DNA of 39,884 nt, taken from Acidobacteriaceae bacterium (GTDB lineage: Bacteria > Acidobacteriota > Terriglobia > Terriglobales > Acidobacteriaceae). Shown here piece by piece: positions 1,720 through 30,502 of the stretch. Within the stretch, counting starts at the first letter, position 1; every line of letters begins with the position of its first letter. A program made the translations under genes and the position numbers. The DNA is taken from contig PLSB01000035.1 of assembly GCA_003165005.1 (NCBI GenBank), positions 13,608 to 53,491 on the forward strand, in the 5' to 3' direction. Below the pieces are notes generated by a model, which ran no database searches, was not told the origin of the DNA, and was given only the letters and a program-made list of their open reading frames with translations.

Positions 1720-2739
1720 TTACGCCCCAATGTCCTTGAGTAATGACTGAAGCCGGTGCAATCTCGCGTCGAACACCGATTCCTCGCTGAGGTTGGCGGG
1801 CCGCTGCGCGGCCTCCCGAAGAGCTTGCACTGCACGCTTCAAGTACCATTGGTCCATTTTTTTCCGTGCGCCATGGAAAGGTTTGAGATCGAGAATGCGC
1901 TGCGGAATGCGAACTGCCAGCACTCGCATCAAGCGGCTCCATCCAGGCCAAACCCTCCAGGCACGCAGGCGCTGGTCGATCTCAAACTTGCGGGTAACGC
2001 GATCGATATTGCGATTTGCGCTATAGTGGCTGATTCCGCGAAAGCGGTAGGAAAAATTGCCTATCGCCTCGAGCGCGCTCGAAGCGCCCAGATAGACGGG
2101 CTCGTAGGGCAGGCCAAGGCTTCGCGTCCAATCCAGCCACTTGAAGGTGTTGCTTTGTGGAGAAAGCGCCACGGGAATCCACGGCACGCGGAGAGCGTCG
2201 GCAACAATGGCGGCGTGCATGGCGTCGGCGATCACAAGCTTGGCGCGCCGGATGCGCTGCACCATCTTCTCGCTATCCTCGAAGGGGTCAAGGAAGGTGA
2301 CACCGGCCAATGCGCATACTCTCTCCCAGTTTCCATCGGCAAGAGTGCTGCAATGGGGCATAAATACAACCCCCGCCCGCTCCGATTCGGGTAGCGGCTT
2401 GCATTCGGGGAGCAGGCGCAGGAGAGCCGCTGCGTCTGTTACTGCCTTGTCGGCTGGCAGCCCCAGGACTTTGGCGGTAAGCGGCCCTCGAACCGCGAGG
2501 ATCTTCCAGGAAGGGCCGCCAACATCGTCGGGCAGAATGTCGTATCCGACGCCGCTCCCAAGCACGATGTAACGTCTATTCGGAGGCAGAAGCCCCTTGG
2601 AAATGACCGTCCCGACACCAGCAAAGTAGACCTCATCGTCGGCCTCTACAGTACTGCCGAGAAGTCGGCTCCAAAGCCAGCGGTTTAGATCGTCTCCGAA
2701 ATTGGTCTTGCCGTCGTCTGTATAGAGCGCGATCTGCAA
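1720..2739 (-). CDS. Polysaccharide pyruvyl transferase family protein
   Basis: A 339-residue protein of the CsaB/GumL/EpsO-type family (PF04230), whose members move pyruvate from phosphoenolpyruvate onto a sugar as a ketal and so add a negative charge to a polysaccharide. Visible family marks are NFGDDLNRWLW near the N-terminus, GSGVGYD, VRGPLTAKVLG in the middle and ADAMHAAIVADALRVPWI in the second domain. The C-terminal 100 residues are basic and more divergent. The start is a TTG at 2739 preceded by a good GGGGGTG Shine-Dalgarno about 6 bases away, which favours TTG over later codons. It follows a decayed stretch and precedes the deacetylase-like gene. Family is secure; the sugar acceptor is unknown. 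Confidence 0.85.
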   Translation of the reverse strand: MQIALYTDDGKTNFGDDLNRWLWSRLLGSTVEADDEVYFAGVGTVISKGLLPPNRRYIVLGSGVGYDILPDDVGGPSWKILAVRGPLTAKVLGLPADKAVTDAAALLRLLPECKPLPESERAGVVFMPHCSTLADGNWERVCALAGVTFLDPFEDSEKMVQRIRRAKLVIADAMHAAIVADALRVPWIPVALSPQSNTFKWLDWTRSLGLPYEPVYLGASSALEAIGNFSYRFRGISHYSANRNIDRVTRKFEIDQRLRAWRVWPGWSRLMRVLAVRIPQRILDLKPFHGARKKMDQWYLKRAVQALREAAQRPANLSEESVFDARLHRLQSLLKDIGA

Positions 2740-3298
2740 GATTTCACCCCCGTGAAGGTCGAACGTGTTTCAGGCCGCCTCTTCAGGAGCCGCGGGCTTT
2801 CCGCGCAACTCATCCCGGCTGAAATGCCCGGCTTCGTCGCCGCGTCAGCATCACGCCCGCTGCCGAACGGTGAGATACGTGGTGAACGAGAGAGAGATTT
2901 GCCAGGCCTCTTCGGGACGAATGGATTGCAGTCATTCATGCACTCGGCGGAGACGTACTCGCTCGCGCACGTCGTCTGCTTCGAGAATACGCAGAGCCGC
3001 CGCAGCTTCGATGAAAGTAAGGAGAAAAGCAGGTTAAGGCGCGATGAAGAGCCTTCGAGAACGTCTACTGGAGAACTTTGCGGTTCCAGTTAACGGAGGC
3101 GCTTGAAAGGGAGACCATCTCTGAGCAGGCGGACCATTCGCCGCCAATGCTGCTCAAAATACATATTGACCAAGTCCTCCGCGGACTAATCCGTTCTGAT
3201 CGATATCATCCCGAATTGTTGCGACAGCAACTAACACTGTTTCACTATGAATGACCACATCCGCGGCAATGCCATTCGAGGCGATTACCTGCATCGCG
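2740..3298. other. Gene-poor 559-bp gap inside the minus-strand EPS operon
   Basis: No intact gene is visible between the pyruvyltransferase start and the methyltransferase stop. On the minus strand, short stretches with coding-like amino-acid composition appear in different frames, described separately as a possible pseudogene. The small open frames on either strand here (for example 2752-3093 plus and 2685-2939 minus) are Ser/Arg-rich and lack ribosome sites, so I do not call them genes. Confidence 0.6.
2851..3294 (-). pseudogene. Possible decayed gene, unidentified
   Basis: Minus-strand reading from an ATG at 3294 gives plausible protein (MQVIASNGIAADVV..., then ...IDQNGLVR) up to about 3181. 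It then runs into a stop unless the frame shifts by one base at 3178-3180 (cgcggagga). After the shift it continues as EDLVNMYFEQHWRRMV... to a TAA at 3090-3092. Two further stretches in another frame, 2932-3033 (...AALRILEADDVRERVRL...) and 2851-2931 (LQSIRPEEAWQISLS...), also look like former coding sequence broken by stops. The pieces resemble charged, helical C-terminal protein sequence, but I do not recognise a family. It could be the eroded end of a glycosyltransferase or modifying enzyme; it could also be chance. Confidence 0.3.
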
Positions 3299-3991
3299 CT
3301 ATGGGTGAGCCACAAACACTGCCCGGCGAACGCTGCTCTTATATGAATCGGTTTCGCCCGCCTTGATCACCTCAGAGAATCCGCATGATCGAATAAACTC
3401 GGCGATCCAATCATGGGGATTGGCTCCCATGTCAGGTAAGAGCGGGGCCCATTCCATCGCAACCTCGTTTGACTGCCCCATGTCAAAGATCAAGGACTTG
3501 GCTGTCCTTTCTCTGATCCTTCTAAGGAAGTCTCTCGCGTAGTCAACGCCGTGTTCATACATAACATGGTGCAAAACCGAAAGAAAGATTACCGTGTCGA
3601 AGGTTGGCAGCTTACCAAGAAACTCCGGTGTGATGTGTGCATACATGAAGCCTGCCGGCTCATTCCTGTTCAATAGGTTCACATTCTGAGCAACGGTCAT
3701 CCTGCGGACGTCCGCATCAACTCCGAGTACAAAACACCCGAATTCTCGCGCCACACGCTGAACGTAATAGCCTTCGGCGCAGCCCAGATCAAGCACGGTT
3801 CCTGGGGTTTTGGAAACGACGTCGCTGATTACGGCCCATCGATCCGAGCAGCCACGCTCTCCGCTCGAAACGAGTTTGCCATCAATCGATATGGGATGGT
3901 ATGGCTCGTACTGTCTGATCAGCCTGCGAATCACCAACTTATGCAGGGAACGAAGAAAGCCGCCTAAATCGTCATCAATTTGCAACTTCAT
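3299..3991 (-). CDS. SAM-dependent methyltransferase
   Basis: A 230-residue class I methyltransferase. The SAM-binding motif I is VLDLGCAEGYY (residues 66-76), followed by the acidic end of strand 2 in VLGVDAD and a post-motif FLSVLHHVMY. The C-terminal part (PDMGANPHDWIAEFIRSCGF) resembles small-molecule or sugar methyltransferases such as those methylating EPS residues. Start chosen at ATG 3991 because GGGAG lies about 6 bases upstream and the protein begins MKLQIDDDLGG; a longer frame reaches 4093 but adds a low-complexity, unlikely N-terminus. More A/T-rich than the flanking GT genes, like its upstream neighbour. Substrate unknown; a role in decorating the EPS is inferred from position. 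Confidence 0.82.
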   Translation of the reverse strand: MKLQIDDDLGGFLRSLHKLVIRRLIRQYEPYHPISIDGKLVSSGERGCSDRWAVISDVVSKTPGTVLDLGCAEGYYVQRVAREFGCFVLGVDADVRRMTVAQNVNLLNRNEPAGFMYAHITPEFLGKLPTFDTVIFLSVLHHVMYEHGVDYARDFLRRIRERTAKSLIFDMGQSNEVAMEWAPLLPDMGANPHDWIAEFIRSCGFSEVIKAGETDSYKSSVRRAVFVAHP

Positions 3992-10448: not shown

Positions 10449-12782
10449 CTAACCCAACGCGCCAAGCGCCGCTTGCGCATCCTTGGCGACCGGTGAACTG
10501 GGCTGAAGGGAAATGGCCTTCTTCAGATGCAGCGTCGCGTTGGTCCTATCTTTGAGTTTGCTATAAACCATGCCCAGGTGGTATTGCATGGTAGCGTCGC
10601 CGGGCTGGGCCTTCACCGCGTCCTCCAGCAGGTCGCGCGCAAAACCGTAGGTTCCCTTGTTGTAGTAGGCCCAGGCCAGCGTATCGGCGGTATTCGGCGA
10701 GTCCGGCATGGCCTGCCGGGCGATTTGCGCAAGCGACAGCGCGACATCGGCGTTTTCGCCGTTCTCCAGCATCAGGTAGGCAAGATTGTTTGCCGCCATG
10801 GGCAGGTGTGGCTGGATCCCGAGCGCCTTTTTGTAATCGGCCTCGGCCTGTCCTTTATTTCCCCTTGCTTCCTCAAGAGTTCCGAGGAGAGCAAACGCGG
10901 TGGCGTCGTTGGGGTGCGTGTTGATCCATTGCTGCCAGGACGCGATGGCGTTCGCGGTCTGCCCGCGCATCACCGCAATCTGCGTAACGAGCGTGATAGC
11001 CTCGGTGTCTGCAGAGTTGAGCTGCATGGCTTTCTGAGCCGAAGCCGCGGCCTGATCCAGGTTGTTGCTCACCGTCTGCAACAGCGCGAGGAGATCCCAA
11101 AAGCCGCTGTTTTGCGGCCGCTTGCCGATTTGCTCGTTGACGCGGGCCAGGGCCTTATCCGGCTGTTTCAGATTCATGTTGTAATTGACCAGAAGGCGGA
11201 GCGCCTCTACGGAATCCGGGTCATATTGCAGGGCCTGTTCCAGCAGCGCGACGCCCTCGGGAAAACGCTTTTCGGAAAAACGCAGCTTGCCAAGCTGAAG
11301 GTAGCCGAGGGCGCTATGGGGAGCAACGGCGATCGCAGTTTTCAAATCGGATTCCGCCTTGGCGGTATCGTTATGTTTGATTTCGACGATGGCGCGCCAA
11401 ATATACCCGCCCCCGAAGCGCGGGGCCGCGGCGATGGTCTTGTCCGCCACGTCGGCCAACAGGCTCATATCGCCGCGTTGCGATGCGATTGCCGCCAGCG
11501 CTTCCTCGGCGGCGAGCATGGAGGGATTCAGCTTCTCCACTTCAAGGAAGCTTCTCTCTGCCAGATCGGAATCGCCGCTAGCCAGGGCCGCCCGGCCCAG
11601 CCAGTACTGCAGGAACGGGTCTTTGGGGGAATCCTTGACGGCAACCTCCAGAGCATTGACCGCGTCATTGGCCTTGCCGGCATCGATTAACACAATTCCA
11701 TTCAGGGCGATCACCTCAGGATCCTTGGCATTCTTCTTCTGGAGCGAGGCGATCACAGTGCGGGCTGTGGCCAGGTCATTGACCTGAATAAGGGAACGGG
11801 CATATGCCTTCTGCAGGGGGACATTGGAAGAGTATTTTTGGGCCAGAGTGGCGAATTCGGTTTTGGCCTTGTCGTACTGCCCGCTGGAGGTGTAATAGTC
11901 GGCGAGCATGCGCACACCCTGGGGATTGTCGGCGAGATCGCGCGATGCCTGGCGGAGCACCTGCTCGGCCCTGGCTTGATCGCCCATCTTCAGGATCACC
12001 TGCGCCAGATCCTCCCGCACCGCCAGATTCTTGGGATCGGCGGCCACGGCAGTCCAGCCGATCTGCTCGGCTTCGGGCAAGCGGTTGGTCCTGATATAGA
12101 AGGCCATCAGCAGAATCCTTGGGTTTGCCGACTTTGCATCGAGCGAGACCGCTTTCTTCAACTCCTCCTCGGTCGACGCGGCGTTCGTGGGATCGGCGGA
12201 AAGCAAAAATGCGAGATTGTCGTGGAAAGCCGCCCGGCTGGGATCCAGTTCGATCGCGCGGCGCATCTCTGTTATCGATAAATCCTTGTTGCCACGCTTG
12301 AAGGCGATCGCGGAAAGCAGCCCGTGGAGATCGGGGTTGTTGGGCCGCGCAGCCAACACCATGTTGGCCTGTGCCTGGGCATCGTCGATCCTGCCACCGG
12401 CGAGGAGAAGATTGGCCAGCGAGATGCGGGCGTTGAAGTTCGCCGGATCCAGGTCCACGGTGTGTTGAATTTCGGCATAGGCCGGGCCGAACCGGCCCAT
12501 ATGCAGATACGTCTTCCCCAATTCGAAATGCACGTCCGGATCGTTCCTGTCGATCTTCAATGCGTTGGAGAACTGGATGGTGGCTTCGCGCCACTTCCCC
12601 TCGGCGGCATAGCGCTTACCACTCTCCAGGTATTTCTGTTTGGCGACAGTTGGATCTCGGTGGCATCCGGAGAGGACAGCAAGGGCAACGAAGAGAGTGG
12701 TGCATGCAAGGAACGCGCGCCGGCGCAGTTGCATCGAGGACCGGCTGCGGCTCCGTTCAAGTGCCTTGGGCGTGTTCTTCAT
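10449..12782 (-). CDS. TPR-repeat lipoprotein of the exosortase/EPS locus (PrsT-like)
   Basis: A 777-residue exported protein made almost wholly of tetratricopeptide repeats. It has a basic N-terminus, a hydrophobic stretch and a lipobox LSGC (Cys about residue 40), so it should be a lipoprotein. The start of the mature part, VAKQKYLESGKRYAAEGKWREATIQFSNALKID, closely resembles the TPR lipoproteins (PrsT) that accompany exosortase A systems. Roughly 18-20 repeats follow, ending ...LKKAISLQPSSPVAKDAQAALGAL. Start chosen at ATG 12782 (MKNTPKALERS), with GGAAG 4-8 bases upstream; the frame extends to 12839. It lies 92 bp after epsI. Likely a scaffold for secretion or assembly of polymer or sorted proteins; this is inferred from family and context. 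Confidence 0.85.
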   Translation of the reverse strand: MKNTPKALERSRSRSSMQLRRRAFLACTTLFVALAVLSGCHRDPTVAKQKYLESGKRYAAEGKWREATIQFSNALKIDRNDPDVHFELGKTYLHMGRFGPAYAEIQHTVDLDPANFNARISLANLLLAGGRIDDAQAQANMVLAARPNNPDLHGLLSAIAFKRGNKDLSITEMRRAIELDPSRAAFHDNLAFLLSADPTNAASTEEELKKAVSLDAKSANPRILLMAFYIRTNRLPEAEQIGWTAVAADPKNLAVREDLAQVILKMGDQARAEQVLRQASRDLADNPQGVRMLADYYTSSGQYDKAKTEFATLAQKYSSNVPLQKAYARSLIQVNDLATARTVIASLQKKNAKDPEVIALNGIVLIDAGKANDAVNALEVAVKDSPKDPFLQYWLGRAALASGDSDLAERSFLEVEKLNPSMLAAEEALAAIASQRGDMSLLADVADKTIAAAPRFGGGYIWRAIVEIKHNDTAKAESDLKTAIAVAPHSALGYLQLGKLRFSEKRFPEGVALLEQALQYDPDSVEALRLLVNYNMNLKQPDKALARVNEQIGKRPQNSGFWDLLALLQTVSNNLDQAAASAQKAMQLNSADTEAITLVTQIAVMRGQTANAIASWQQWINTHPNDATAFALLGTLEEARGNKGQAEADYKKALGIQPHLPMAANNLAYLMLENGENADVALSLAQIARQAMPDSPNTADTLAWAYYNKGTYGFARDLLEDAVKAQPGDATMQYHLGMVYSKLKDRTNATLHLKKAISLQPSSPVAKDAQAALGALG

Positions 12783-12874
12783 GATCTTCCATCCTTCTTG
12801 GCTGCCGCCCGGGGTAACGACAGCCCTGGTTTGGTGCATCCATCTCGTTTTCGGTCCCGCCTTCTACCATGGGA

Positions 12875-13516
12875 CTAACCGGGAATAAAACGCGTAAGCG
12901 TGGGCGCAAGTTGCCGGGCAAAGCCCTCGGCCCGGGCTTTCGCCTGTGCTTCGCCTTCGCTGGAACGGATCGGCGTGATGATGCGCACCAGTGCCCCGTC
13001 CGTGCGATTCATGCGCATGGCGTCGGCCACCAGGTAGACCTTGGCCAAATATTCGCTGGCTACGCTGCGCCCATGAGCTTCATACCAGTAGATGACGAAC
13101 TCTTTCGCCTGTCCGTTGCTGATGACGTACTCGCCCACGCGATGCGCCCGGCCGTCGGCGTCCTCCAGATCGATGGAGCGCGACGAATCGAACATCCACC
13201 CGGCGCCGGGCAAACAGTGCTTCGGCGAATGGATCGTGCTGCCCGCCCTCTGCGAGGGAAAATAGGCAATGAACAGGTCAATGGGGGCCGACCCTCCCTC
13301 CCGGATGTAGTTGCGCTCCAGGAAATCTCCGTCTCCAAGCACATCCCGGGTCTCCTGGTCGATGGTCACATCCCTGCCCCACCAACCGCTGATCGTGTCC
13401 GGAAACTGCGCCAATGGCTCGCGCGGAGGGATCAGATCGCGGCTGGGCCGGGCATACAAGATGACGACCGCGCCGGCCAGCAGTAAGGCGACGGTCCAGA
13501 AACGCAGCCGGTTCAT
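12875..13516 (-). CDS. epsI: Exosortase-associated protein EpsI
   Basis: A 213-residue protein with one N-terminal membrane segment (residues 7-22) and a periplasmic domain of the EpsI/DUF3485 family. The family signature is clear: SGWWGRD (43-49), LFIAYFPSQRAGSTIHSP and CLPGAGW with Cys101, and then VIYWYEAHGR. EpsI is encoded next to, or fused to, exosortases and is thought to assist the sorting or EPS process; its biochemical job is not established. Here it is a separate gene: its ATG at 13516 overlaps the exosortase TGA (ATGA) and has a strong AAAGGAGG Shine-Dalgarno. A 494-codon frame runs upstream to 14359, but that part is a shifted shadow of the exosortase gene, not a fusion. Confidence 0.93.
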   Translation of the reverse strand: MNRLRFWTVALLLAGAVVILYARPSRDLIPPREPLAQFPDTISGWWGRDVTIDQETRDVLGDGDFLERNYIREGGSAPIDLFIAYFPSQRAGSTIHSPKHCLPGAGWMFDSSRSIDLEDADGRAHRVGEYVISNGQAKEFVIYWYEAHGRSVASEYLAKVYLVADAMRMNRTDGALVRIITPIRSSEGEAQAKARAEGFARQLAPTLTRFIPG

Positions 13517-14412
13517 GCCTGCCTCCTTTTGCGTGGAAACACGCCCATCGCCTGATCGACCCCGACCAGGCAGGCGAGAGAGACCAGGAACATCACCCAG
13601 CCGGAAAACTCGTGGAAGAACCCCATCGCCTTCTCCGGATCCCAGTACTGAACGCTCAGGCCGGTGCCCAGCAGGCGCACGGCATTGGCCGCAATGGCAA
13701 TAGGCAAACTGGCAAAGGCCAGCGCCACGCGGCGCCACGTGGACCGTTCCAGGAAATAGCCGTAGAAGATTGCCAGGGTCAGCAGGCTCATCAGCGAGCG
13801 AATCCCGCTGCACGCCTCGGCGACCTCCAGGCTCATCGCAGGCAGCTGAATGACATTGCCCTCGCGCAACACCGGTACGCCAAAGAGCGGAAGCAAGTCG
13901 CTGGCCAGCTTGGAGGCCAGGATCTGCAGCGGAAAAGTGATCTGCGTGTAGAGAATCGCGGGAATCGGAATGGCCAGCAGCAGGACCAGCAGGGCGAACC
14001 GCATTTCGGCCAACTGCTTCCTGCCGCCAAAACCGAGCACCAGGCCGGCCAGCACCATAACCAGCGAGATACGGGAAAGAAACAACTCCGATCCATAGAC
14101 TCCCAGGAGAAGCACGAGCAGTCCAAAGAACACCAGCGCCACGCCGCTCCACGACGGGGCAATCCCGGTAGCAAGAAGACGGTCCCTCTTCCTCCACAAC
14201 ACGTACGCCGCAAAGGGCGGAACCAGGAAGCCGTGGGAGAAATCCGCAATCTGCCACCAGTCGGTTACGAGCTTTGCCAGGACCCGGCAATAGGCCGCCG
14301 CTACGAGCGCAGCGATCAGCAACGCGCCCCCGAGGAGTTTCCGGTCGCGCGGAAGCCATGGTTTCTGGGCACTTTGCCGTGCCTTTGCGTCTTGGGTTAC
14401 GGTCGTCAACAT
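13513..14412 (-). CDS. Exosortase
   Basis: A 299-residue inner-membrane protein with about eight transmembrane segments and the full exosortase catalytic set: Cys201 in EVAEACSGIRSL, Arg246 in NAVRLL, and His267 in FFHEFSGW. Exosortases are membrane cysteine proteases/transpeptidases that process C-terminal sorting signals such as PEP-CTERM. The combination with EpsI, a TPR lipoprotein and EPS export genes is that of exosortase A-type systems. Start chosen at ATG 14412 (MLTTVTQDAK) because the alternative at 14454 would sit on the predicted transcription start of the sigma-54 promoter at 14466-14482. First gene of the minus-strand operon. No PEP-CTERM substrate is encoded in this window. Confidence 0.92.
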   Translation of the reverse strand: MLTTVTQDAKARQSAQKPWLPRDRKLLGGALLIAALVAAAYCRVLAKLVTDWWQIADFSHGFLVPPFAAYVLWRKRDRLLATGIAPSWSGVALVFFGLLVLLLGVYGSELFLSRISLVMVLAGLVLGFGGRKQLAEMRFALLVLLLAIPIPAILYTQITFPLQILASKLASDLLPLFGVPVLREGNVIQLPAMSLEVAEACSGIRSLMSLLTLAIFYGYFLERSTWRRVALAFASLPIAIAANAVRLLGTGLSVQYWDPEKAMGFFHEFSGWVMFLVSLACLVGVDQAMGVFPRKRRQA

Positions 14413-14465
14413 AGGATCTAGGATCACAGACACACTACAACCAGCGCCTGACACTTAGCAAGAAT

Positions 14466-14482
14466 AGCAATCCGAGTGCCGA
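14466..14482 (-). promoter_or_regulatory. Sigma-54 (-24/-12) promoter for the exosortase operon
   Basis: Minus strand reads TCGGCACTCGGATTGCT. Compared with the RpoN consensus YTGGCACGNNNNTTGCW it keeps GGCAC at -24 and TTGCT at -12, with the required 10 bases between GG and GC. Transcription would start near 14455, giving a leader of about 43 bases before the exosortase ATG at 14412. Confidence 0.7.
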
Positions 14483-14551
14483 AGAGAAATCCCCTCGTTC
14501 TACAGGCATTTCCCTTGATTCGGCAAAGGATGGTAACATGTTTGACAGGGG

Positions 14552-14573
14552 AAGTGGAAAGCGATTTCCACTT
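14552..14573. promoter_or_regulatory. Palindrome 1, candidate enhancer site
   Basis: Perfect inverted repeat with 9-base arms AAGTGGAAA and TTTCCACTT around a 4-base spacer (GCGA). Core GGAAA-N4-TTTCC. The centre is about 175 bases upstream of the predicted plus start site and about 107 bases upstream of the predicted minus start site, suitable for an NtrC-type activator acting on both promoters. Confidence 0.55.
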
Positions 14574-14610
14574 TCATTGAGCCTGATGAGGAAAAATCAA
14601 TCGCCTTTAT

Positions 14611-14626
14611 GGGAAAATCTTTTCCC
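14611..14626. promoter_or_regulatory. Palindrome 2, candidate enhancer site
   Basis: Perfect inverted repeat with 7-base arms GGGAAAA and TTTTCCC around TC, again containing the core GGAAA-N4-TTTCC found in palindrome 1, 56 bases away centre to centre. Neither arm is followed by a gene end, so it is not a terminator. Likely binding site for a dimeric helix-turn-helix protein. Confidence 0.55.
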
Positions 14627-14709
14627 TCCTTGTGCGCATTCTCTGACTCGACGCACGGGAAATCACCGGATAAACACGGCAAACAATGACCCCGTAATGT
14701 GGCCACAGT

Positions 14710-14726
14710 TTGGAAACCGTATTGCT
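14710..14726 (+). promoter_or_regulatory. Sigma-54 (-24/-12) promoter for the EPS export operon
   Basis: Plus strand reads TTGGAAACCGTATTGCT: TTGG at -24, TTGCT at -12, and exactly 10 bases between GG and GC, as RpoN requires. The middle of the -24 box departs from consensus. Transcription would start near 14737, so translation of the next gene must begin at ATG 14756 rather than at ATG 14699. Confidence 0.65.
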
Positions 14727-14755
14727 ATGGCAGGGATGGAGCCTTGGGACTCTCT

Positions 14756-15673
14756 ATGGCAGATCATTCGACCATCCCCGGCCTGAAGCGGCACATGAAG
14801 CACTGTGCTCCGCTCTCGGGCCAACTGCAACTCGGAATCGCCCGCATAGCGGAGTCTGACTGCCCCGTTCTCATCGCTGGAGAACATGGCGTGAGCAAGC
14901 GGTCGATCGCCCGCCAGATCCATGCCATGTCGCGACGGTCCCGCAGCACGTATACCGAATTGGAGAGTGCCGAAGCCACTGAACAGGCTCTTCGCGACCT
15001 GCTCTCTACCAGGGGAACACTGTACCTGGCGGAGATTGCCGATTTGAGCCCCAGTCTGCAGGAATGGCTGGTCAACGCCTGCCAGCATCAGGATTGGTCG
15101 CAAAGCTGCCGCCTGGTGTGCGGAACAAGCCGGGAACTCCTCGACGAAGTCCGGGACCGGCACATGCGCGAGGATTTTTGTTACCTGGTTTCGGCCGTGA
15201 CGCTTCGCATCGCGCCGCTGCGTTATCGCAAAGCCGAGATCCTGTCCCTCGCCGATGACCTTCTGGAACACTATGCAAGGCAGTTTGACCGCGGCAAGCC
15301 GGTTCTGGGCGAGGAAATTGCCGGCTTCCTGATGGAGCACACGTGGCCTGATAATCTGGCTGAGTTGGAAACCGCCATGAAGACCGTGGCCGCCATTGAC
15401 GATCCCTCCATCTCCCTCGCCGCGCTCAAAGCGGCGGCCGCGGCCACGAAACTCAACGCCAACCGGCAAACCCGTCCTTTGAAACAGGCGGCGCGGGTGG
15501 CATCCACCCAGATCGAGCGCCGCATGATCTCGGAGGTCATGGCCGCGACAGGCGGCAATCGCAAGCGCGCGGCCGATGAGCTTGGCATCAGCTACAAGGC
15601 CCTGCTTTACAAACTCAAACAGGCGGAAATCGATTCTCCGACTGCAGCCACCCGTACCGGAGTTGGACGATGA
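14756..15673 (+). CDS. Degenerate NtrC/Fis-type regulator
   Basis: A 305-residue protein with the layout of the AAA+ domain and C-terminal Fis-type helix-turn-helix of sigma-54 activators, but with no receiver domain. The AAA+ part is damaged: Walker A reads GEHGVSKRS (Ser in place of the Gly before Lys, residues 42-50), Walker B reads GTLYLAEIADL with Ala92 in place of Asp, and about 25 residues including the GAFTGA loop are missing. The sensor region (REDFCYLVSAVTLRIAPLRYR) and the HTH (256-288, GGNRKRAADELGISYKALLYKLK) are well kept. It should bind DNA but probably cannot remodel sigma-54 holoenzyme. Start ATG 14756 fits the promoter at 14710-14726. Its stop overlaps the next start (ATGA), so it is co-expressed with export genes. 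Confidence 0.85.
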   Translation: MADHSTIPGLKRHMKHCAPLSGQLQLGIARIAESDCPVLIAGEHGVSKRSIARQIHAMSRRSRSTYTELESAEATEQALRDLLSTRGTLYLAEIADLSPSLQEWLVNACQHQDWSQSCRLVCGTSRELLDEVRDRHMREDFCYLVSAVTLRIAPLRYRKAEILSLADDLLEHYARQFDRGKPVLGEEIAGFLMEHTWPDNLAELETAMKTVAAIDDPSISLAALKAAAAATKLNANRQTRPLKQAARVASTQIERRMISEVMAATGGNRKRAADELGISYKALLYKLKQAEIDSPTAATRTGVGR

Positions 15674-16377
15674 AATCTGGAACTTTACTTATGATTGCAA
15701 TCCTCGCGCCGGGACTCTTGTGCCTGGCGCAGAGTCAGGAGCCTGCGGCAACGCCTCCGGCACCCGCGGCGTCTCCGGCAACCGCAGCACCTGCGGCCTC
15801 TCCGGCGCCTGCGGCGCCCGCCGCGTCTCCGGCACCCGCGGCACCCGTGACGTCTCCGGCGCCTGCGGCGCCCGCGCAGCCGGGCGCGGCGCCAAATGAC
15901 ACGTATGTGATCGGCGGCAACGACGTGCTTTCCATCACGGTGTGGAAGGAGCCGACGCTCTCCGGCACCATCCTGGTTCGTCCCGATGGCATGATCTCCA
16001 TTCCTCTGGTGGGCGATGTTCAAGCCACCGGCCTCACGCCCCTTCATCTGGCCGATCAGATCACAGCCAAGCTGAAGAAGTATGTTCAGGACCCCAATGT
16101 CTCCGTGGTCGTCACGCAAATCCACAGCAAGCTTGTCTACATGATCGGCGAAGTGGGGAGGACTGGCCCGGTGGAGATGACTCCCGACATGACTCTGCTC
16201 GAGGCCATCGCCAGCGCGGGCGGTCTGTCGGAATTCGCCAACAAGAAGAAGATCTACATTCTGCGCGACGAGGGCGGGAAGCGCCAGAGGATTCCGGTAC
16301 ATTACAAGGAGGCGCTGGCGGGAAACCGCGAGTTTGACCTCCCGCTGCAGCCCGGCGACACCGTTGTTGTTCCATAA
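15670..16377 (+). CDS. Wza-type polysaccharide export protein
   Basis: A 235-residue exported protein. A signal peptide (1-21, ending CLAQS) is followed by an Ala/Pro/Ser-rich linker (24-75) built from repeats of APAASP, then the polysaccharide export domain (76-150, YVIGGNDVLSITVWKEPTLSG...) and one SLBB domain (151-235, ending LQPGDTVVVP). It would form the periplasmic/outer-membrane channel for EPS. It is much shorter than E. coli Wza and lacks both the third domain and a proper lipobox (LLC has Leu before Cys), so it may work with the beta-barrel gene next to it. The ATG at 15670 overlaps the regulator stop; 9 bp follow before the next gene. Confidence 0.92.
   Translation: MKSGTLLMIAILAPGLLCLAQSQEPAATPPAPAASPATAAPAASPAPAAPAASPAPAAPVTSPAPAAPAQPGAAPNDTYVIGGNDVLSITVWKEPTLSGTILVRPDGMISIPLVGDVQATGLTPLHLADQITAKLKKYVQDPNVSVVVTQIHSKLVYMIGEVGRTGPVEMTPDMTLLEAIASAGGLSEFANKKKIYILRDEGGKRQRIPVHYKEALAGNREFDLPLQPGDTVVVP
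15741..15880 (+). repeat. Imperfect tandem repeat encoding an Ala/Pro-rich linker
   Basis: About 140 bp of degenerate repeats, with TCTCCGGC recurring every 15-30 bases (variants of ctccggcgcctgcggcgccc), coding for alternating APAASP units between the signal peptide and the export domain. Such tracts change length easily by slippage in multiples of the 15-bp unit without loss of frame. Confidence 0.75.
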
Positions 16378-16386
16378 GGCCTACGA

Positions 16387-17658
16387 ATGAAAGCTTTTAT
16401 CGCCATTATGACGATTCTCGGATTGGTCGCTGCCGCGAGGGCGCAGGTCGCGCCGGAAGCGACCAGCCCGACGAGGCTCGCCATCAGCGGAACCCTTTCC
16501 TATTCAGCGCGTTACGTGCAGGTGGCCGAATTTTACAACGGGGGCACGTCGCAGTTGGCGAACGTTTCCGGTAATTTCGGTTACTCGACGACCAGCGAGC
16601 GGCATCCCACCTCGGTCTCCCTCGGCGCCGGCGATAGCTGGTCACTCTCCGGCACAGGTTACAACGGCGGGCCTTACGAGAGCCTGTCGCTTTCGCAGGG
16701 TTTTGCCGGACAGCATGCGTCTCTGCAGTTGGGCGATTTCGTGGGCTATCACAAAGGCGTGCCCTTCGATGAAACCAATCCAACCTTGGGAACAGCCGAG
16801 CCGATTCTGACGCTGGACACGACCATGGTGAATAATGGCGTCACTGGCACGTATAGTTATAAGCTCGGCGCGTTTTCGACGCTGAGCGCCGGCGGCGCCT
16901 ATAGCCAGGTCTATTACCCCGATGGGGGTGGCGTGAACACAAACTCGCTCATGGCCAACGCAGGACTGAACCGCCGCCTCAATGCTCGGAACTCGATCTT
17001 CGGCGAGTACTCGTTTTCTCAGTACGGCTACTCCGGCAGCGATGTCAGCATCGATGCCAATACGGCTGTCGCCGGCTGGCAGCGCACGTGGACCCACAAG
17101 ATCACTACAAGCGTCTCCGCCGGGCCCCAATGGGTCACTTTCAATACCAGCACCCCGGCGCCCAGCACCCCGCCGCCCAGCACCTCGCTGCCGGGATTCA
17201 CGGGATATTCGGTCAATGCATCGGTTACCGATACCTCCGCAGTGGGCGCCGCGAACCTGGCTTACAGTCACGGGGTCAATAGCGGCGGCGGCTATCTCAA
17301 CGGCGCGGAAGTGGACGCTATCACGGTGAGCTTCGGCCGAAGCTTCGGGCGCCAGGTCCGAAGTCAATTCACGATTGAACTGGCTGGCGGCTACCGCCGT
17401 ACCGACGCTCTGAGCTCGCTGGCATCCGTAAACCTGCCAGGGGGCTCGCAGGGAGACTACGATGCGAAGTACGGTACGGCGCAGGTCTCCAGGGCTCTGG
17501 GGCGTCTTTTTTCCGCCTATGCTGGCTACACGGGGACGAGCCAGTCGTCGACTTCGTCGGCTTCCGGCGGCGCTCCTCTCGCTCCCCTCAACGGCTTATT
17601 CCAGACCATCAGTTTTGGTATTGGTTTTACACCCCCGCAGATTCATCTAAGACACTGA
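16387..17658 (+). CDS. Outer-membrane beta-barrel protein of the EPS operon
   Basis: A 423-residue protein with a cleavable signal peptide (MKAFIAIMTILGLVAAARAQ) and then alternating aromatic/polar strands typical of a transmembrane beta-barrel (LAISGTLSYSARYVQVAEFY..., SIFGEYSFSQYGYSG..., FSAYAGYTGTSQSS, ending with a strand LFQTISFGIGFTPPQI). A Thr/Pro/Ser-rich loop lies near residues 255-270. Exosortase-linked EPS loci commonly carry a large uncharacterised barrel at this place between wza and wzz, and this protein probably fills that role as an outer-membrane port for the polymer. Placement 9 bp after wza and 16 bp before wzz supports a shared function. No specific family could be named with certainty. 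Confidence 0.8.
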   Translation: MKAFIAIMTILGLVAAARAQVAPEATSPTRLAISGTLSYSARYVQVAEFYNGGTSQLANVSGNFGYSTTSERHPTSVSLGAGDSWSLSGTGYNGGPYESLSLSQGFAGQHASLQLGDFVGYHKGVPFDETNPTLGTAEPILTLDTTMVNNGVTGTYSYKLGAFSTLSAGGAYSQVYYPDGGGVNTNSLMANAGLNRRLNARNSIFGEYSFSQYGYSGSDVSIDANTAVAGWQRTWTHKITTSVSAGPQWVTFNTSTPAPSTPPPSTSLPGFTGYSVNASVTDTSAVGAANLAYSHGVNSGGGYLNGAEVDAITVSFGRSFGRQVRSQFTIELAGGYRRTDALSSLASVNLPGGSQGDYDAKYGTAQVSRALGRLFSAYAGYTGTSQSSTSSASGGAPLAPLNGLFQTISFGIGFTPPQIHLRH

Positions 17659-17674: not shown

Positions 17675-19219
17675 ATGCTCGGGCATCGCGAACTTACAAT
17701 TCAGGACTATATCGGTATTCTCAAGCGGCGGCTCTGGCTGGTCCTCCTCTCGACCCTCGTGTTTCTGGGCGCTGCGGTCGCACTTACATTCTGGATTCCG
17801 CCCCAATATATGTCGCAGACGCTGGTGTTGATTGAGCAGCAGAAAGTGCCGACGGACTATGTGACCCCGGTTCTCACCGAAGATTTGAACGAACGCCTGG
17901 CCTCGCTGCGGGAGCAGATTCTGAGCCGCTCGCGCCTGGAGCCTATCATTCAGCGTTTCAACCTGTTTGCTGGCAACGGGGCCACGATGGACGACCGCGT
18001 CGCAGCCACCCAGAAGGCGATTGAAGTCAAGCCGATTAACGATGGCCCCCGCGGCATGCCGGGCTTCTACATCACGTTTAAGGCCGCCGACGCGCGGACC
18101 GCGCAGCAAGTGTGCAGCGAGATCACCTCTCTGTTTGTCAGCGAGAACCTCAATGCCCGCGAGGAATCCGCCGAGGGCACTACGGAATTCCTTAAGCAGC
18201 AACTGGCCGATGCCAAGACAAACCTGGACGAGCAGGACGCCAAACTGGCGGCTTTTGAACAAAAGAATATCGGCAGACTTCCCGCGCAGACGGTCACACT
18301 CGGCGGTATGAGCCTCGCCATGGGAACTTCGAATGAAAGCACCCTTCAGGCGCTCACTACCCAGCTTAACGCCGCTACGCAGGCGCTGGATCGCATGCAG
18401 ACCAACGAGACCTTCCTTGAGGCTTTGATTGATCAGCAGGGACATGAGCTGCAGGGCTCCGAGACCGGCGGCCCCTCGGTGGATGAGCGAGAGAAAGAAC
18501 TCAAGGGTCTCATCGCGCAAAAGCAGCAACTGGAGACGCAATATACGCCGGACTATCCCGATGTAGTCGAAGTCACGCGCAAGATCGACGACCTCAAGGC
18601 AGAGATCGCGCAGGCCGCGGCTGCTCCGGCGCCCGCCGCGGAGACGCACCCCGCTACCCGCCCGGAGTCGCCTCAGCTTCAACAACTCAAATTCCAACTC
18701 TCCTCGCAAAAACAGGCCATTGTCAGGACAAAGCAGGAACAGGCTCAGTTAGAACAGCAGATTCGAACCTACGAAGCTCGGATTGAGGCAAGCCCGCTGG
18801 TCGAGGAGGAGTACAAGCAGGTCACGCGCGATCATGACATTGCGCTGCAGTTTTATGACAGCCTGCTGAAGAAAATGGATGAATCGTCCATGGCGACGGC
18901 TCTCGAGCATCGTCAGGAAGGCGAGCAGTTCCGCGTGATGGATCCGCCGAATCTGCCCGACGCGCCCTACTATCCCAATCGCACGAAATTTGCAGGCGCA
19001 GGCCTGGCGGGCGGCCTGTTTTTGGGCCTCTTGCTGGCCGCATTGCTGGAATACCGCGATACCGCACTGCGCACCGAGCTGGATGTTTGGGCCTTCACCA
19101 AGTTGCCGACGCTCGCCGTCCTCTCTCATGTCGATGGTCTTCCCAAAAATGCCAACGATCCGGACGGCGGCAAGAGCTTTGACCGCACGGGGATTCCGGC
19201 GGAGAGTATGGGCGGGTAG
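17675..19219 (+). CDS. Wzz-type polysaccharide chain-length determinant
   Basis: A 514-residue inner-membrane protein with the Wzz domain layout: cytoplasmic start LTIQDYIGILKRRLWLVLLSTLVFLGAAVAL (membrane segment 1, about 22-42), a long periplasmic part with coiled coils (about 165-215 and 255-390, Gln/Glu/Lys-rich), and a C-terminal segment FAGAGLAGGLFLGLLLAALLEY (about 440-461). The motif PPNLPDAPYYPNR before the second segment is the usual Pro-rich signature. It lacks the kinase domain, which is encoded two genes later as in proteobacterial exosortase loci. A good AAAGGAGG Shine-Dalgarno lies 4 bases before the ATG. It sets EPS chain length and links polymerase to exporter. Confidence 0.93.
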   Translation: MLGHRELTIQDYIGILKRRLWLVLLSTLVFLGAAVALTFWIPPQYMSQTLVLIEQQKVPTDYVTPVLTEDLNERLASLREQILSRSRLEPIIQRFNLFAGNGATMDDRVAATQKAIEVKPINDGPRGMPGFYITFKAADARTAQQVCSEITSLFVSENLNAREESAEGTTEFLKQQLADAKTNLDEQDAKLAAFEQKNIGRLPAQTVTLGGMSLAMGTSNESTLQALTTQLNAATQALDRMQTNETFLEALIDQQGHELQGSETGGPSVDEREKELKGLIAQKQQLETQYTPDYPDVVEVTRKIDDLKAEIAQAAAAPAPAAETHPATRPESPQLQQLKFQLSSQKQAIVRTKQEQAQLEQQIRTYEARIEASPLVEEEYKQVTRDHDIALQFYDSLLKKMDESSMATALEHRQEGEQFRVMDPPNLPDAPYYPNRTKFAGAGLAGGLFLGLLLAALLEYRDTALRTELDVWAFTKLPTLAVLSHVDGLPKNANDPDGGKSFDRTGIPAESMGG

Positions 19220-19221
19220 TC

Positions 19222-20154
19222 ATGTACGAAAAGCACTTCGGTCTTCGCGCCTCGCCCTTCGGGACCAGCCCGGATCCGCGCTTCCTGTGCATGCTCCCGC
19301 GGATTCGCGAGACGCTGGCAGCGCTGCAATACGGCATTGCGTCGCGCAGAGGCTTTGTCGTGTTGACCGGCGAAGTGGGCACGGGCAAGACCACCCTGCT
19401 CAAAGCGGTCCTCGGTACCTTCGTCAAGGTCCGCGTTTCCTCGGCATTTGTCTTCAATCCACGCCTCGAGGTGCACGATTTTCTCGACTTCGTGCTTACC
19501 GAGTTCGACATCCCGGTGAAGCGGCGCACCAAGGCCGGCATGCTGCTGGAGTTGAATAGTTGGATGATCGAGCGCTATCGCGAGGGCGGCCTCTGCGTCA
19601 TTGCCGTCGACGAGGCGCAAAACCTTTCCTGGGATCTCATGGAAGAGATTCGCCTGCTGACCAACCTGGAAACCTCTTCCGACAAGCTCTTGCAGATCGT
19701 GCTCTCCGGCCAGCCGGAACTGGAGAGGAAATTGAACGACCCTCGCGTCCGCCAGTTGCGGCAGCGCATTGCGGTTTGGTGCAAGACGCATCCGCTCACC
19801 AGCGAACAGACGCCCATCTACATCTCCGAGCGGCTGCGCATCGCGGGCGCCACACAGCCTTTGTTCACCCCCGCGGCCATGGAGACGGTGCATGCCATCG
19901 CGAAAGGCATTCCACGCCTGATCAACCTCATCTGCGAGCACGCCATGATTTGTGCGTATGCGGAGCAGGCGCTGCCTATCTCGCCGAGGGTGATCGAAGC
20001 GGTGAGCGCGGAACTCAATCTCGGGGATACACCCTATGTGCTTGATCCCGGAACTGCGGACAAGCTCCGGGTGAATAGCCTCAGCAACGACATATCGCAA
20101 TTCATGGCCCCTTTTCGAGGGCCGCTTGATGAATCAGAGGACACTGCGCAATGA
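19222..20154 (+). CDS. ExeA-like AAA ATPase of the exosortase/EPS locus
   Basis: A 310-residue AAA+ ATPase beginning MYEKHFGLRASPFGTSPDPRFL, the hallmark of the ExeA/GspA-type family, and the variant that accompanies exosortase A EPS loci. Walker A is GEVGTGKTT (50-58), Walker B VIAVDEAQ (126-133), and a sensor region follows at IVLSGQPELERKLNDPRVRQLRQRI. It ends with a lid domain (RLINLICEHAMICAYAEQ). No membrane segment. The role in EPS export is not established; energising assembly or remodelling the envelope is plausible. It starts 2 bp after wzz and overlaps the BY-kinase gene by ATGA. Confidence 0.9.
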   Translation: MYEKHFGLRASPFGTSPDPRFLCMLPRIRETLAALQYGIASRRGFVVLTGEVGTGKTTLLKAVLGTFVKVRVSSAFVFNPRLEVHDFLDFVLTEFDIPVKRRTKAGMLLELNSWMIERYREGGLCVIAVDEAQNLSWDLMEEIRLLTNLETSSDKLLQIVLSGQPELERKLNDPRVRQLRQRIAVWCKTHPLTSEQTPIYISERLRIAGATQPLFTPAAMETVHAIAKGIPRLINLICEHAMICAYAEQALPISPRVIEAVSAELNLGDTPYVLDPGTADKLRVNSLSNDISQFMAPFRGPLDESEDTAQ

Positions 20155-21074
20155 GCTACATTTACCAAGCCCTTTTGAGAGCCGAACGTGAGCGGCAAAG
20201 CCAACCGTCCGCGCCCGGCGATCGCGAAGCCGCGCCGCCGCCCAACCCGGGAACCTTGCCTGGCCCGCCCGAGGAGTTCGACGCCGACTCCGCGCCCATC
20301 GCGCAGCACGAGTGGAGACTGTTTATTCCTTCATTCCCCACTCTGGCAAAGCACGGCCGCGGACTCGAGCAGTTTCGCAGTCTCCGCTCGCATATCTATC
20401 AGGCCCGTAACGAGACCCCGCTCAAGACCATCCTTGTCTCCAGCGGCATGCCATCGGAAGGCAAGAGTTTCGTCACCGCGAATCTGGCCATGAGCCTGGC
20501 CAGAAACAGCAACAATCGCATCTTGCTCATCGATGGCGATCTGCGGCGCCCATCTCTCCACCATTTGCTGGGCGCGCCAAACGATATCGGCCTCTCGGAC
20601 TACCTGGCGGGAAATGCGGAACTGCACGCCATCATGCAGCGCTGCTCCGACAGCCAGGCCCTGGGCGGCAACGGAATCCCCGACGTGGCCAAACTCACCT
20701 TCGTCCCCACCGGCAGTCTTCATGACAACGCCTCCGAACTCATCACCAACCAGCGCACCAAAGAGTTGATCGCCGCGGTCTCGGCATCGTTCGACTGGAT
20801 TCTCATCGACTCGCCGCCAGCCCTGGTTTTCGCGGATGCGGTCGATCTTGCCCGCGCCGCCGATGCGGTCCTTTTGGTGGTTCGCGGGTCGCAAACCACT
20901 TACGAAGTCGCGCAGCGGGCCAAATCGAGTTTTTCGAACTCGAACATCCTGGGCGTGGTGCTCAACGACATCAAGAATCCGCCGCGCCGCGAGTCGTACT
21001 ACGACTACTATTACTACGGAAAGAAAGCCCCGAAGGAAACCGCGGCGCCGGAGTCCGAACAGGAAACGCAATGA
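20151..21074 (+). CDS. Bacterial tyrosine autokinase (CpsD/CapB-type)
   Basis: A 307-residue cytoplasmic BY-kinase. It begins MSYIYQALLRAERER, followed by a Pro-rich linker (28-40). The P-loop is SSGMPSEGKSF (97-107), Walker A' is LLIDGDLRRPS (125-135) and Walker B ILIDSPPAL (217-225). The tail carries a tyrosine cluster SYYDYYYYGKK (282-292), the autophosphorylation sites. BY-kinases cycle phosphorylation with the Wzz partner to regulate polymer length and export; here the partner gene lies two positions upstream. Both ends are ATGA overlaps with neighbours, implying tightly coupled translation. Confidence 0.94.
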   Translation: MSYIYQALLRAERERQSQPSAPGDREAAPPPNPGTLPGPPEEFDADSAPIAQHEWRLFIPSFPTLAKHGRGLEQFRSLRSHIYQARNETPLKTILVSSGMPSEGKSFVTANLAMSLARNSNNRILLIDGDLRRPSLHHLLGAPNDIGLSDYLAGNAELHAIMQRCSDSQALGGNGIPDVAKLTFVPTGSLHDNASELITNQRTKELIAAVSASFDWILIDSPPALVFADAVDLARAADAVLLVVRGSQTTYEVAQRAKSSFSNSNILGVVLNDIKNPPRRESYYDYYYYGKKAPKETAAPESEQETQ

Positions 21075-22447
21075 TTCGGCTCTTTAACGTTTACTATTCG
21101 ACGCGCACGGTGATACGCGTGCTCGGCGAGGTTCCCTTGGTCGCCGGCTCATTTTTGATTGCCGCTTTTTGGTTGTCCGGGCCCGACCCATCGATTCCCC
21201 TGCTCTACGAAGATGGCCTGCTGAAGATTGCCGCCCTCACGGTCTTCACGCTCCTGTTGACCTATTATTTCGATCTCTATGAACCGCGGCACATCTCCGG
21301 CGGCTGGGAGATCTATTTCCGCATCCTTTTGGTTTTGAGCGCGCTCTCCTTTGTTTTAGCCGCGCTTCTCTTTTGGGACCCCGATTTTGCCTTTGGGCAC
21401 AATGTTTTCGTGGTCGGCGTGGCGATTCTTGCGGTAACGTTGTTGATCTGGCGATCGGTCTACGAATGGTTGTGCAATCTTCCGGCTTTTCGGGAAAGGG
21501 TGTATGTCCTGGGCCGCGGCGCACGCGCGGACAGCCTGATCGAGATGCTGCGCGAGCGGCGCGACGCAGGCATGGAGGTGATGGCGCGAGAGAGCTTCGC
21601 CACTTTTCCAGAGGGATCTCGTGGGGGCTACGCCGCGGAACTCGATGCCCTGAGCGCACTCCACACACGCGTCGATCGCGTGATCGTGGCCATTGAAGAG
21701 CGGCGCGGGTCCATGCCTCTGCATGAGCTTCTTGACTTGCGGTACAAGGGCTTCTCGATCGATGACGCGAACGCGCTTGTCGAACGGCTCGAAGGCAAGC
21801 TGCCGCTCGAGGGACTGATTCCGAGCAGCCTCATTTTTACCGACGGCTTCAAGATTGGCTCCGGCAAGCTGCTGATCCGGCGGCTGGTATCCTTTGGCGT
21901 GTCGTTGACCGGGCTGCTGCTCTGCCTGCCTTTTATCCCGTTCATTATGCTGGCGGTGCGGCTTTCGTCCCCGGGGCCCATCTTTTTCCGGCAAACCCGT
22001 GTCGGACGCCATGGCCGTCCCTTCTCGCTGATCAAATTCCGGACCATGAGGGACGACGCCGAGGCCGATGGCGCCATCTGGGCCACCGCCAACGACTCCC
22101 GGGTTACTCCGCTCGGTCGATTTCTGCGCAAGTCCCGGCTCGATGAGATTCCTCAGCTGTGGAACGTGCTGAAAGGGGAGATGAGTTTTGTCGGCCCGCG
22201 GCCGGAGCGCCCCGAGTTCGTGGGGTGGTTAGCCAAGGAGATTCCCTTCTATGAGCTTCGCCACATGGTTCGTCCGGGAATCACGGGCTGGGCTCAGGTG
22301 CGGTATCATTACGGCGCGAGCCTGGAAGAGGCAAAGCGCAAGCTCGAGTACGACTTGTACTACGTGAAGCACCTGTCGCTCGGCCTTGACCTGCTGATCA
22401 TGTTCGAGACGATCAAAATCATCATGCTGGGAAGAGGCGCACGATGA
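21071..22447 (+). CDS. Undecaprenyl-phosphate sugar-1-phosphate transferase (initiating enzyme)
   Basis: A 458-residue polyprenyl-phosphate glycosylphosphotransferase of the type found in exosortase loci. Four membrane segments lie in residues 15-135, followed by a CoA-binding-like domain (VYVLGRGARADSLIE), one more membrane segment (about 272-295) and the catalytic bacterial sugar transferase domain. The catalytic part shows SSPGPIFFRQTRVGR, KFRTM, the essential Asp-Glu in SRLDEIPQLWNVLKGEMSFVGPRPERPEF, and RPGITGWAQV. It transfers the first sugar phosphate to undecaprenyl phosphate and so starts each EPS repeat unit. The sugar is unknown. ATGA overlaps on both sides. Confidence 0.94.
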   Translation: MIRLFNVYYSTRTVIRVLGEVPLVAGSFLIAAFWLSGPDPSIPLLYEDGLLKIAALTVFTLLLTYYFDLYEPRHISGGWEIYFRILLVLSALSFVLAALLFWDPDFAFGHNVFVVGVAILAVTLLIWRSVYEWLCNLPAFRERVYVLGRGARADSLIEMLRERRDAGMEVMARESFATFPEGSRGGYAAELDALSALHTRVDRVIVAIEERRGSMPLHELLDLRYKGFSIDDANALVERLEGKLPLEGLIPSSLIFTDGFKIGSGKLLIRRLVSFGVSLTGLLLCLPFIPFIMLAVRLSSPGPIFFRQTRVGRHGRPFSLIKFRTMRDDAEADGAIWATANDSRVTPLGRFLRKSRLDEIPQLWNVLKGEMSFVGPRPERPEFVGWLAKEIPFYELRHMVRPGITGWAQVRYHYGASLEEAKRKLEYDLYYVKHLSLGLDLLIMFETIKIIMLGRGAR

Positions 22448-30497: not shown

Positions 30498-30502
30498 CTA
30501 GC
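30381..30502. repeat. Inverted-repeat element with nested hairpin
   Basis: Perfect 16-bp terminal inverted repeats GCTAGGTCTCTGACCG (30381-30396) and its complement (30487-30502) enclose 90 bp. In the middle, CCTTTCGCC and GGCGAAAGG form a second perfect 9-bp stem that can extend to 13 bp with one G-U pair (about 30422-30456). The right arm overlaps the GH115 stop codon (30498-30500). No flanking target duplication is obvious. It could be a MITE-like or REP-like element or a structured 3' UTR. Confidence 0.6.

Follow-up and report, generated by a model that had tools for sequence, protein, structure and literature searches.

An exosortase operon and an exopolysaccharide (EPS) operon lie divergently in this acidobacterial genome, and the 343 bp between them (14413..14755) raise the question of which sigma factor and which activator might act there, and at which sites. 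A preliminary description had placed in this control region two divergent -24/-12 boxes with exact GG-N10-GC spacing and, between them, two palindromes with the common core GGAAA-N4-TTTCC. Both pairs were confirmed and are listed here with the flanking genes; positions are those of the window, i.e. the whole 39.9-kb stretch of DNA that was analysed.

10449..12839, minus strand: PrsT-like TPR protein (TIGR02917, 289 bits, below the cut-off of 312)
12875-13516, minus strand: epsI, exosortase-associated protein (TIGR02914 over cut-off, searched as 12875-13519)
13513-14412, minus strand: exosortase, 299 aa (exosortase/EpsH, PF09721, E = 2.7e-78)
14466-14482, minus strand: predicted sigma-54 -24/-12 box of the exosortase operon, TCGGCACTCGGATTGCT
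14552..14573, no strand: candidate operator O1, extended palindrome AAGTGGAAAGCGATTTCCACTT (AAGTGGAAA-N4-TTTCCACTT)
14611..14626, no strand: candidate operator O2, extended palindrome GGGAAAATCTTTTCCC
14710-14726, plus strand: predicted sigma-54 -24/-12 box of the EPS operon, TTGGAAACCGTATTGCT
14756..15673, plus strand: P0001, first gene of the EPS operon, a GAFTGA-less relative of sigma-54 activators (AAA remnant and Fis-type HTH)
15670..16377, plus strand: polysaccharide export protein (PF02563; TIGR03027 below cut-off)
16387..17658, plus strand: possible outer-membrane protein of the PEP-CTERM system (weak TIGR03016 match)
17675..19219, plus strand: polysaccharide chain-length determinant (TIGR03007 below cut-off)
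19222..20154, plus strand: XrtA/PEP-CTERM-associated ATPase (TIGR03015 below cut-off)
20151..21074, plus strand: tyrosine autokinase (TIGR01007 over cut-off)
21071..22447, plus strand: EpsB_2 glycosyltransferase of the XrtA/PEP-CTERM system (TIGR03013 over cut-off)

The exosortase passed only the general models TIGR02602 and TIGR04178, the NCBIfam subtypes XrtD, XrtW and XrtA remaining below their cut-offs. Its gene and epsI share 4 bp but are read in different frames; a 494-aa mechanical ORF at 12875-14359, half of it out of frame, was discarded as an artefact. A large glycoside hydrolase of the GH115 family (30498-33950; PF15979) is encoded downstream of the EPS cluster, and a second, distant exosortase-family gene is present elsewhere in the genome (C157:3335-4111; PF09721, E = 1.4e-36).

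Layout of the control region

The GG-N10-GC of both boxes stands in the consensus surroundings of sigma-54 promoters. The core of O1 spans 14556-14569 (centre 14562.5) and that of O2 14612-14625 (centre 14618.5), a spacing of 56 bp. With 12 nt counted from the C of the -12 element, transcription is predicted to start at about 14455 for the exosortase and about 14737 for EPS, with predicted leaders of about 43 nt before the exosortase gene and about 19 nt before P0001. Under a simple -24/-12 weighting devised for this analysis, the minus-strand box ranks first among the 12 boxes in the window that score at least 18, and the plus-strand box scores 18.0, which is unremarkable by itself. The exact palindrome core occurs twice in the window, both times in the control region, and five times if one mismatch is allowed (1.36 expected).

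Divergent sigma-54 promoters that share NtrC-type enhancers are a known layout. The present region has the same layout with different target genes and a different motif, and our literature search found no earlier description of such an acidobacterial exosortase/EPS control region. We consider it likely that this is a bidirectional sigma-54 control island with an NtrC-type activator at shared operators, EBP-A (described below) being the likeliest candidate and P0001 a non-activating binder. RpoN-RNA polymerase would wait at the two divergent promoters, an activator bound to the GTGGAAA-N4-TTTCCAC operators (O1 on the side of the exosortase promoter, O2 on that of the EPS promoter) would open both, and the exosortase, epsI and prsT would be expressed together with EPS synthesis and export.

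The preliminary description had one enhancer drive both operons. The region has two operators, however: O1 lies 83 bp from the GG of the exosortase-side box, and the distance of O2 from the EPS-side GG is 94 bp. Such positions would also suit two independent enhancers, O1 serving only the exosortase operon and O2 only the EPS operon, with the activator shared and the enhancer not; this refinement of the favoured explanation, with which it is compatible, seems to us quite possible, though we lean somewhat against it.

Conservation in related genomes

Orthologues of P0001 (55-79% identity) were found in 12 of 70 same-genus genomes. With the own genome counted, the palindrome is present with at most one mismatch in all 13 same-genus loci, and a second one (again with at most one mismatch) lies exactly 56 bp away in six of them. 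The exosortase-side box scored at least 17 in 11 of the 13 loci (all but L008 and L013), and in 11 the EPS-side box was at the aligned place (all but L010 and L013). In G022 the exosortase-side box is present, but the divergent neighbour is not an exosortase. Three loci (L005, L009 and L012) have a single palindrome with at most one mismatch yet both boxes, which argues against a separate enhancer for each operon.

For a wider set we took the best 80 of 520 related loci, found with the peptide patterns ISYKALLY and TGGNRKRAA; nine of the 80 are same-genus loci. Among named relatives, acidobacterial MAGs are the nearest; the titles of the loci, from which the class of the host is deduced, are Acidobacteria, Acidobacteriaceae, Terriglobia, Sulfotelmatobacter, Acidiferrum and similar, apart from one Bacillota and one Verrucomicrobia that are probably mislabelled drafts. 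HTH conservation among these best 80 is biased by the peptide-pattern selection and was not counted, and two loci with short upstream DNA were dropped, leaving 78 for the palindrome and EPS-box counts. The palindrome with at most one mismatch occurred in 69 of the 78 (2.3 in dinucleotide shuffles; 60 of 1973 flanking windows; reversed pattern 1 of 78), the exact palindrome in 24 (0.05 in shuffles) and an EPS-side box scoring at least 17 in 73 (9.2 in shuffles; 231 of 1973 flanking windows; 8 on the other strand), where relatedness of the loci is uncorrected and the shuffle figures are not probabilities. An exosortase-side box was found in 32 of 60 loci from the same best 80 of 520 (9.4 in mononucleotide shuffles) and was below threshold in the other 28; other-strand boxes of the same stretch occurred in 13 of the 60. 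These counts support the proposal of the preliminary description that putative divergent sigma-54 promoters flank the palindromes between the two operons. An EPS export gene follows downstream in 73 of 74 of these loci, and a divergent exosortase lies upstream in 56 of 73 loci with enough flank.

The palindrome-to-EPS-box distances in the 78 wider loci (n = 90) form two groups, with 63 at 90-159 bp and 20 at 250-299 bp, as two enhancers might be expected to produce. Outside the selected core the palindrome flanks are also biased (A-rich from -9.5 to -11.5, G at -7.5 and A at -1.5), their symmetry being imposed because both orientations were counted.

The region is widely conserved among Acidobacteria. 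Single boxes of such a score are not rare, as the 12 in the window illustrate, and the boxes and palindromes could in principle be due to chance, to an unrelated repressor site or to an RNA hairpin. However, because palindrome and boxes are conserved relative to shuffles, flanking windows and the reversed pattern, chance no longer accounts for them; the spacing is conserved as well. We regard this group of readings as highly improbable, and a repressor site would still be compatible with the sequence taken alone.

P0001 and the exosortase (E ≤ 1e-60) occur together in 12 of 71 same-genus genomes, with P0001 only in one, the exosortase only in five and neither in 53 (Fisher p = 6e-9). The sites also persist where P0001 is not their neighbour. 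G062, which has no P0001 between exosortase and EPS export, retains an exact palindrome and both boxes, and in G008 an exact palindrome and the exosortase box remain although the 7 kb taken contain no P0001, so that the sites would serve something besides P0001. Eight exosortase stretches have upstream DNA but lack a P0001 match; of these, the palindrome was found in four (L317, L318, L320 and L323; L317 ends with its contig, and P0001 is not excluded there) and not in L316, L319, L324 and L325. L316 (G026) has exosortase and EPS export with neither palindrome nor boxes.

Across the own draft genome (3.9 Mb in 327 contigs, 75% complete) the exact palindrome has five copies, compared with three for a reversed control pattern. 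Two of the five are O1 and O2, the third lies between two activator genes on contig C36, the fourth on C172, some 250 bp ahead of a PEP-CTERM gene, and the fifth within a 908-aa reading frame on C55; four of the five are therefore at functionally related places. In 12 relatives, 53 of 64 exact palindromes are outside the exosortase/EPS locus and eight of these 53 are outside ORFs of at least 150 aa, the corresponding figures for the reversed pattern being 38 and 11. In these relatives the exact palindrome outside the locus is chance-like and is no genome-wide regulon marker, and the 14-bp core was rejected as a regulon finder for this reason. Inspection of translations by eye at the seven least-coding sites (L091, L100, L101, L102, L118, L120 and L123) recognised no PEP-CTERM or activator neighbour. 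One of these, L102 (G023 C260, about position 2500), is a long palindrome, AGTGGGAAA-N4-TTTCCCACT, at which a -24/-12-like box is only 20 bp distant and no target gene was recognised. At L078, L088 and L108 the exact palindrome adjoins the same conserved gene in three genomes (SecY-like C-terminus by eye) and is probably a conserved coding stretch.

Candidate activators and the loop-less relative P0001

An RpoN domain was found in all 40 same-genus genomes searched and was not detected in the own draft (75% complete). Among 28 genomes of other families it was undetected in six, some of which carry the control region. Two of the six are G097 and G073 (97% complete), in which no RpoN DNA-binding domain was detected, though P0001 relatives are present; G097 (L014) has the palindromes and both boxes. 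Either these genes were missed or there is a hole in the sigma-54 reading, and our confidence in the sigma-54 explanation is slightly lowered because of these missing domains.

PrsR, which the preliminary description had named as a sigma-54 activator often linked to exosortase A loci, had to be given up as a candidate: none of 29 matches in the 75%-complete genome passed TIGR02915, the best reaching 387 bits against a cut-off of 502.6. PrsR and PrsK accompany the PEP-CTERM box of Proteobacteria, which the available text of Haft et al. 2006 (PMC1569441) reports only from that phylum; the motif is 17 nt long with the 3' end TTTACA, lies on average 62.8 nt before a sigma-54 box and precedes PEP-CTERM genes. 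As far as that text describes it, the system resembles ours in having a sigma-54 box preceded by an activator motif, a PEP-CTERM, exosortase and EPS setting and a PrsT-type TPR protein; it differs in that here a different palindrome lies between divergent exosortase and EPS operons, in Acidobacteria and with no PrsR over cut-off. A search for the hexamer of that 17-nt motif, and for the hexamer only, found neither TTTACA nor TGTAAA in 14401-14755.

The two activator genes on C36 are divergent:

C36:507-1946 (L057), minus strand: EBP-A, with receiver, AAA and HTH_8 domains and GAFTGA present
2473-3606 (L057), plus strand: EBP-B, a full sigma-54 activator with no receiver

Eighteen stretches were inspected for such pairs, with none in six of them (L176, L177 and L181-L184). 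Of 12 same-genus EBP-A/EBP-B pairs, nine have the palindrome with at most one mismatch between the two genes, and in the own genome alone it is exact; 0.58 would be expected over all 19 pairs examined. Among seven pairs of the wider set, two have the GGAAA palindrome and five a TGTGCAA-type palindrome. A pair lies about 4.5-10 kb upstream in 7 of the 80 wider loci (best 80 of 520). Orthologues of EBP-A and P0001 were both present in eight of 41 genomes, only one or the other in two each and neither in 29 (Fisher p = 1.9e-5, with cut-offs picked after the scores were seen). The two share a contig in four of the eight (G004, G010, G022 and G036) and are on different short contigs in the rest (G000, G023, G024 and G030). 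They are 12 kb apart in G044, and in G008 EBP-A lies 6 kb from the exosortase. G017 and G035 have P0001 and no EBP-A orthologue, and G016 the reverse (drafts 78-88% complete). Because EBP-A is linked to the locus in several genomes and the same operator recurs between EBP-A and EBP-B, we infer that EBP-A most likely drives the island, with or without its divergent partner, and that the pair is a likelier activator than PrsR or P0001.

The nature of the first EPS-operon gene had escaped the preliminary description. P0001 passed the cut-offs of PF14532, PF00158, PF25601 and PF02954 (AAA/sigma-54-interaction and Fis-type HTH), with no model over cut-off among the 25 NCBIfam models listed and no receiver match in the profile search. 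GAF[TS]G is absent from the matched part of all 80 homologues (best 80 of 520; L189-L268), in which a median of five residues is left of the 19-residue GAFTGA segment of EBP-A, and the family profile aligned with ZraR up to chain residue 73 and resumed at 96, with about 22 residues missing. The loss of the loop is concluded from these alignments and not from the structure model, which is poor (mean pLDDT 61, pTM 0.44); its best match in the PDB, again ZraR (E = 1.4e-10), was left unused at a TM of 0.34. At Walker A the own P0001 reads GEHGVSKR and does not fit GxxxxGK, and the other 12 same-genus orthologues keep GK; among the 80 wider homologues (best 80 of 520), 41 have an intact GxxxxGK, 26 retain the Walker B aspartate and 70 the glutamate.

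The HTH recognition helix is invariant in all 13 genus orthologues of P0001. It reads ISYKALLYKLK in P0001 and ISYKALLYKIK in EBP-A, a likeness that is weak evidence because ISYKALLYK helices are common in these genomes. Selection on P0001 seems to act on DNA binding and not on sigma-54 remodelling, and P0001 may bind O1 and O2 like its activator kin. With a Fis-type HTH of near-identical recognition helix and no loop for sigma-54 contact, it would occupy the operators but not activate, serving either as an autogenous brake or as a partner that does not itself activate, and it probably modulates the island in this way. More specifically, P0001 could be a fossil activator that retains the DNA-binding domain of its own activator, has lost the sigma-54 loop and in many cases the ATPase motifs, and competes with the active hexamer on the shared operators or poisons it, in parallel with a TGTGCAA-type sigma-54 regulon for the substrates (see below); we offer this version only tentatively, and if true, it would give exosortase and EPS a built-in negative feedback.

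Activator-family proteins without the sigma-54 loop are known from Caulobacter and Rhodobacter capsulatus (NtrC) and from Vibrio (VspR); in the available text of that source, R. capsulatus NtrC is reported to activate at sigma-70 promoters, and Caulobacter NtrC binds near polysaccharide genes, its loss raising envelope polysaccharide (PMC10274813). P0001 is like these in lacking the loop and, as they are described there, unlike them in having no receiver match, in lying inside a sigma-54-type operon that it may control and in belonging to a family often without Walker motifs. P0001 might even own the palindromes alone, repressing its own operon and the exosortase, or activating them at sigma-70 promoters, with the sigma-54 activator elsewhere. 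Its position as the first gene beside the sites, its invariant helix and the GAFTGA-less NtrC proteins acting at sigma-70 promoters (PMC10274813) would fit such a role; nevertheless, the palindrome and boxes of G062 and the palindrome and exosortase box of G008 persist without a neighbouring P0001, and the palindrome also lies between most EBP-A/B pairs of the genus, so we consider it unlikely. As an observation apart from its function, a conserved family of GAFTGA-less sigma-54-activator relatives heads acidobacterial EPS operons, about half of them also without Walker A.

PEP-CTERM genes and a second palindrome

Our set of PEP-CTERM upstream regions came from the own genome (14) and seven relatives (30 of 37 matches), 44 in all, or 43 after L279, which has no upstream DNA, was dropped; starts are doubtful for L041, L271 and L291, and some members are tandem paralogues. 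A sense-strand sigma-54 box scoring at least 17 was present in 29 of the 43 (8.2 in shuffles, 3 on the other strand), a finding that carries the sigma-54 link described by Haft et al. outside the Proteobacteria. A proteobacterial example is pepA of Aquincola tertiaricarbonis, a PEP-CTERM gene whose -24/-12 promoter has been mapped and whose RpoN1 dependence is experimental in the text available (PMC9850573); pepA is a substrate gene, whereas the promoters predicted in our control region are those of exosortase and EPS.

The preliminary description had raised the possibility that the palindromes also precede PEP-CTERM genes. In the own genome the exact form was found before one of the 14 genes detected and the form with at most one mismatch before three. 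The PEP-CTERM gene on C172 has two GGAAA palindromes and a -24/-12 box, and over the whole set the palindrome with at most one mismatch occurs in 6 of 43 regions against 1.0 in shuffles, as would be expected if one enhancer and one PrsR-type regulon also drove the PEP-CTERM genes. However, 23 of the 43 carry instead TGCAA-N4-TTGCA with at most one mismatch (0.45 in mononucleotide shuffles), and no PrsR passed its cut-off; we disfavour such a common regulon as very unlikely, and an enhancer shared with the substrates is not what these counts point to. The sorting and EPS machinery and many of the substrates seem to share sigma-54 and not the activator site.

The second palindrome reads in full TGTGCAA-N4-TTGCACA (TGTGCAA-N4-TTGCACATT) and was discovered in the same 43 sequences that were used for counting. 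The distance from the TGCAA palindrome centre to the GG of the box is 58-60 bp in 13 of the 23 regions and 129-131 bp in four. The TGTGCAA palindrome is exact upstream of the PEP-CTERM starts in L037, L270, L275, L276, L277, L278, L281, L289, L290, L296 and L298. Together with the -24/-12 box it would define a second, separate sigma-54-type regulon, still putative, at PEP-CTERM genes. Haft et al. 2006 (PMC1569441), in the text available, expected further PEP-CTERM regulators and DNA motifs to be found, also outside Proteobacteria. For a major soil phylum, the present analysis adds two motifs that can be tested, a pair of candidate activators and a conserved activator relative without the loop, and it makes testable the idea that sigma-54 might co-ordinate sorting machinery, exopolysaccharide and substrates via separate activator sites.

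As a side observation, G030 (92% complete) has P0001, the exosortase and the palindromes, and PF07589 detects no PEP-CTERM protein in it. In five genomes with 48 PEP-CTERM genes, 11 of 26 exact TGCAA-N4-TTGCA sites lie at most 1.3 kb upstream of the C-terminal signal, and two genomes without PEP-CTERM matches have one and four exact sites. Outside the genus, in the flanks of the wider set, TGCAA-N4-TTGCA is present at three of ten PEP-CTERM genes.
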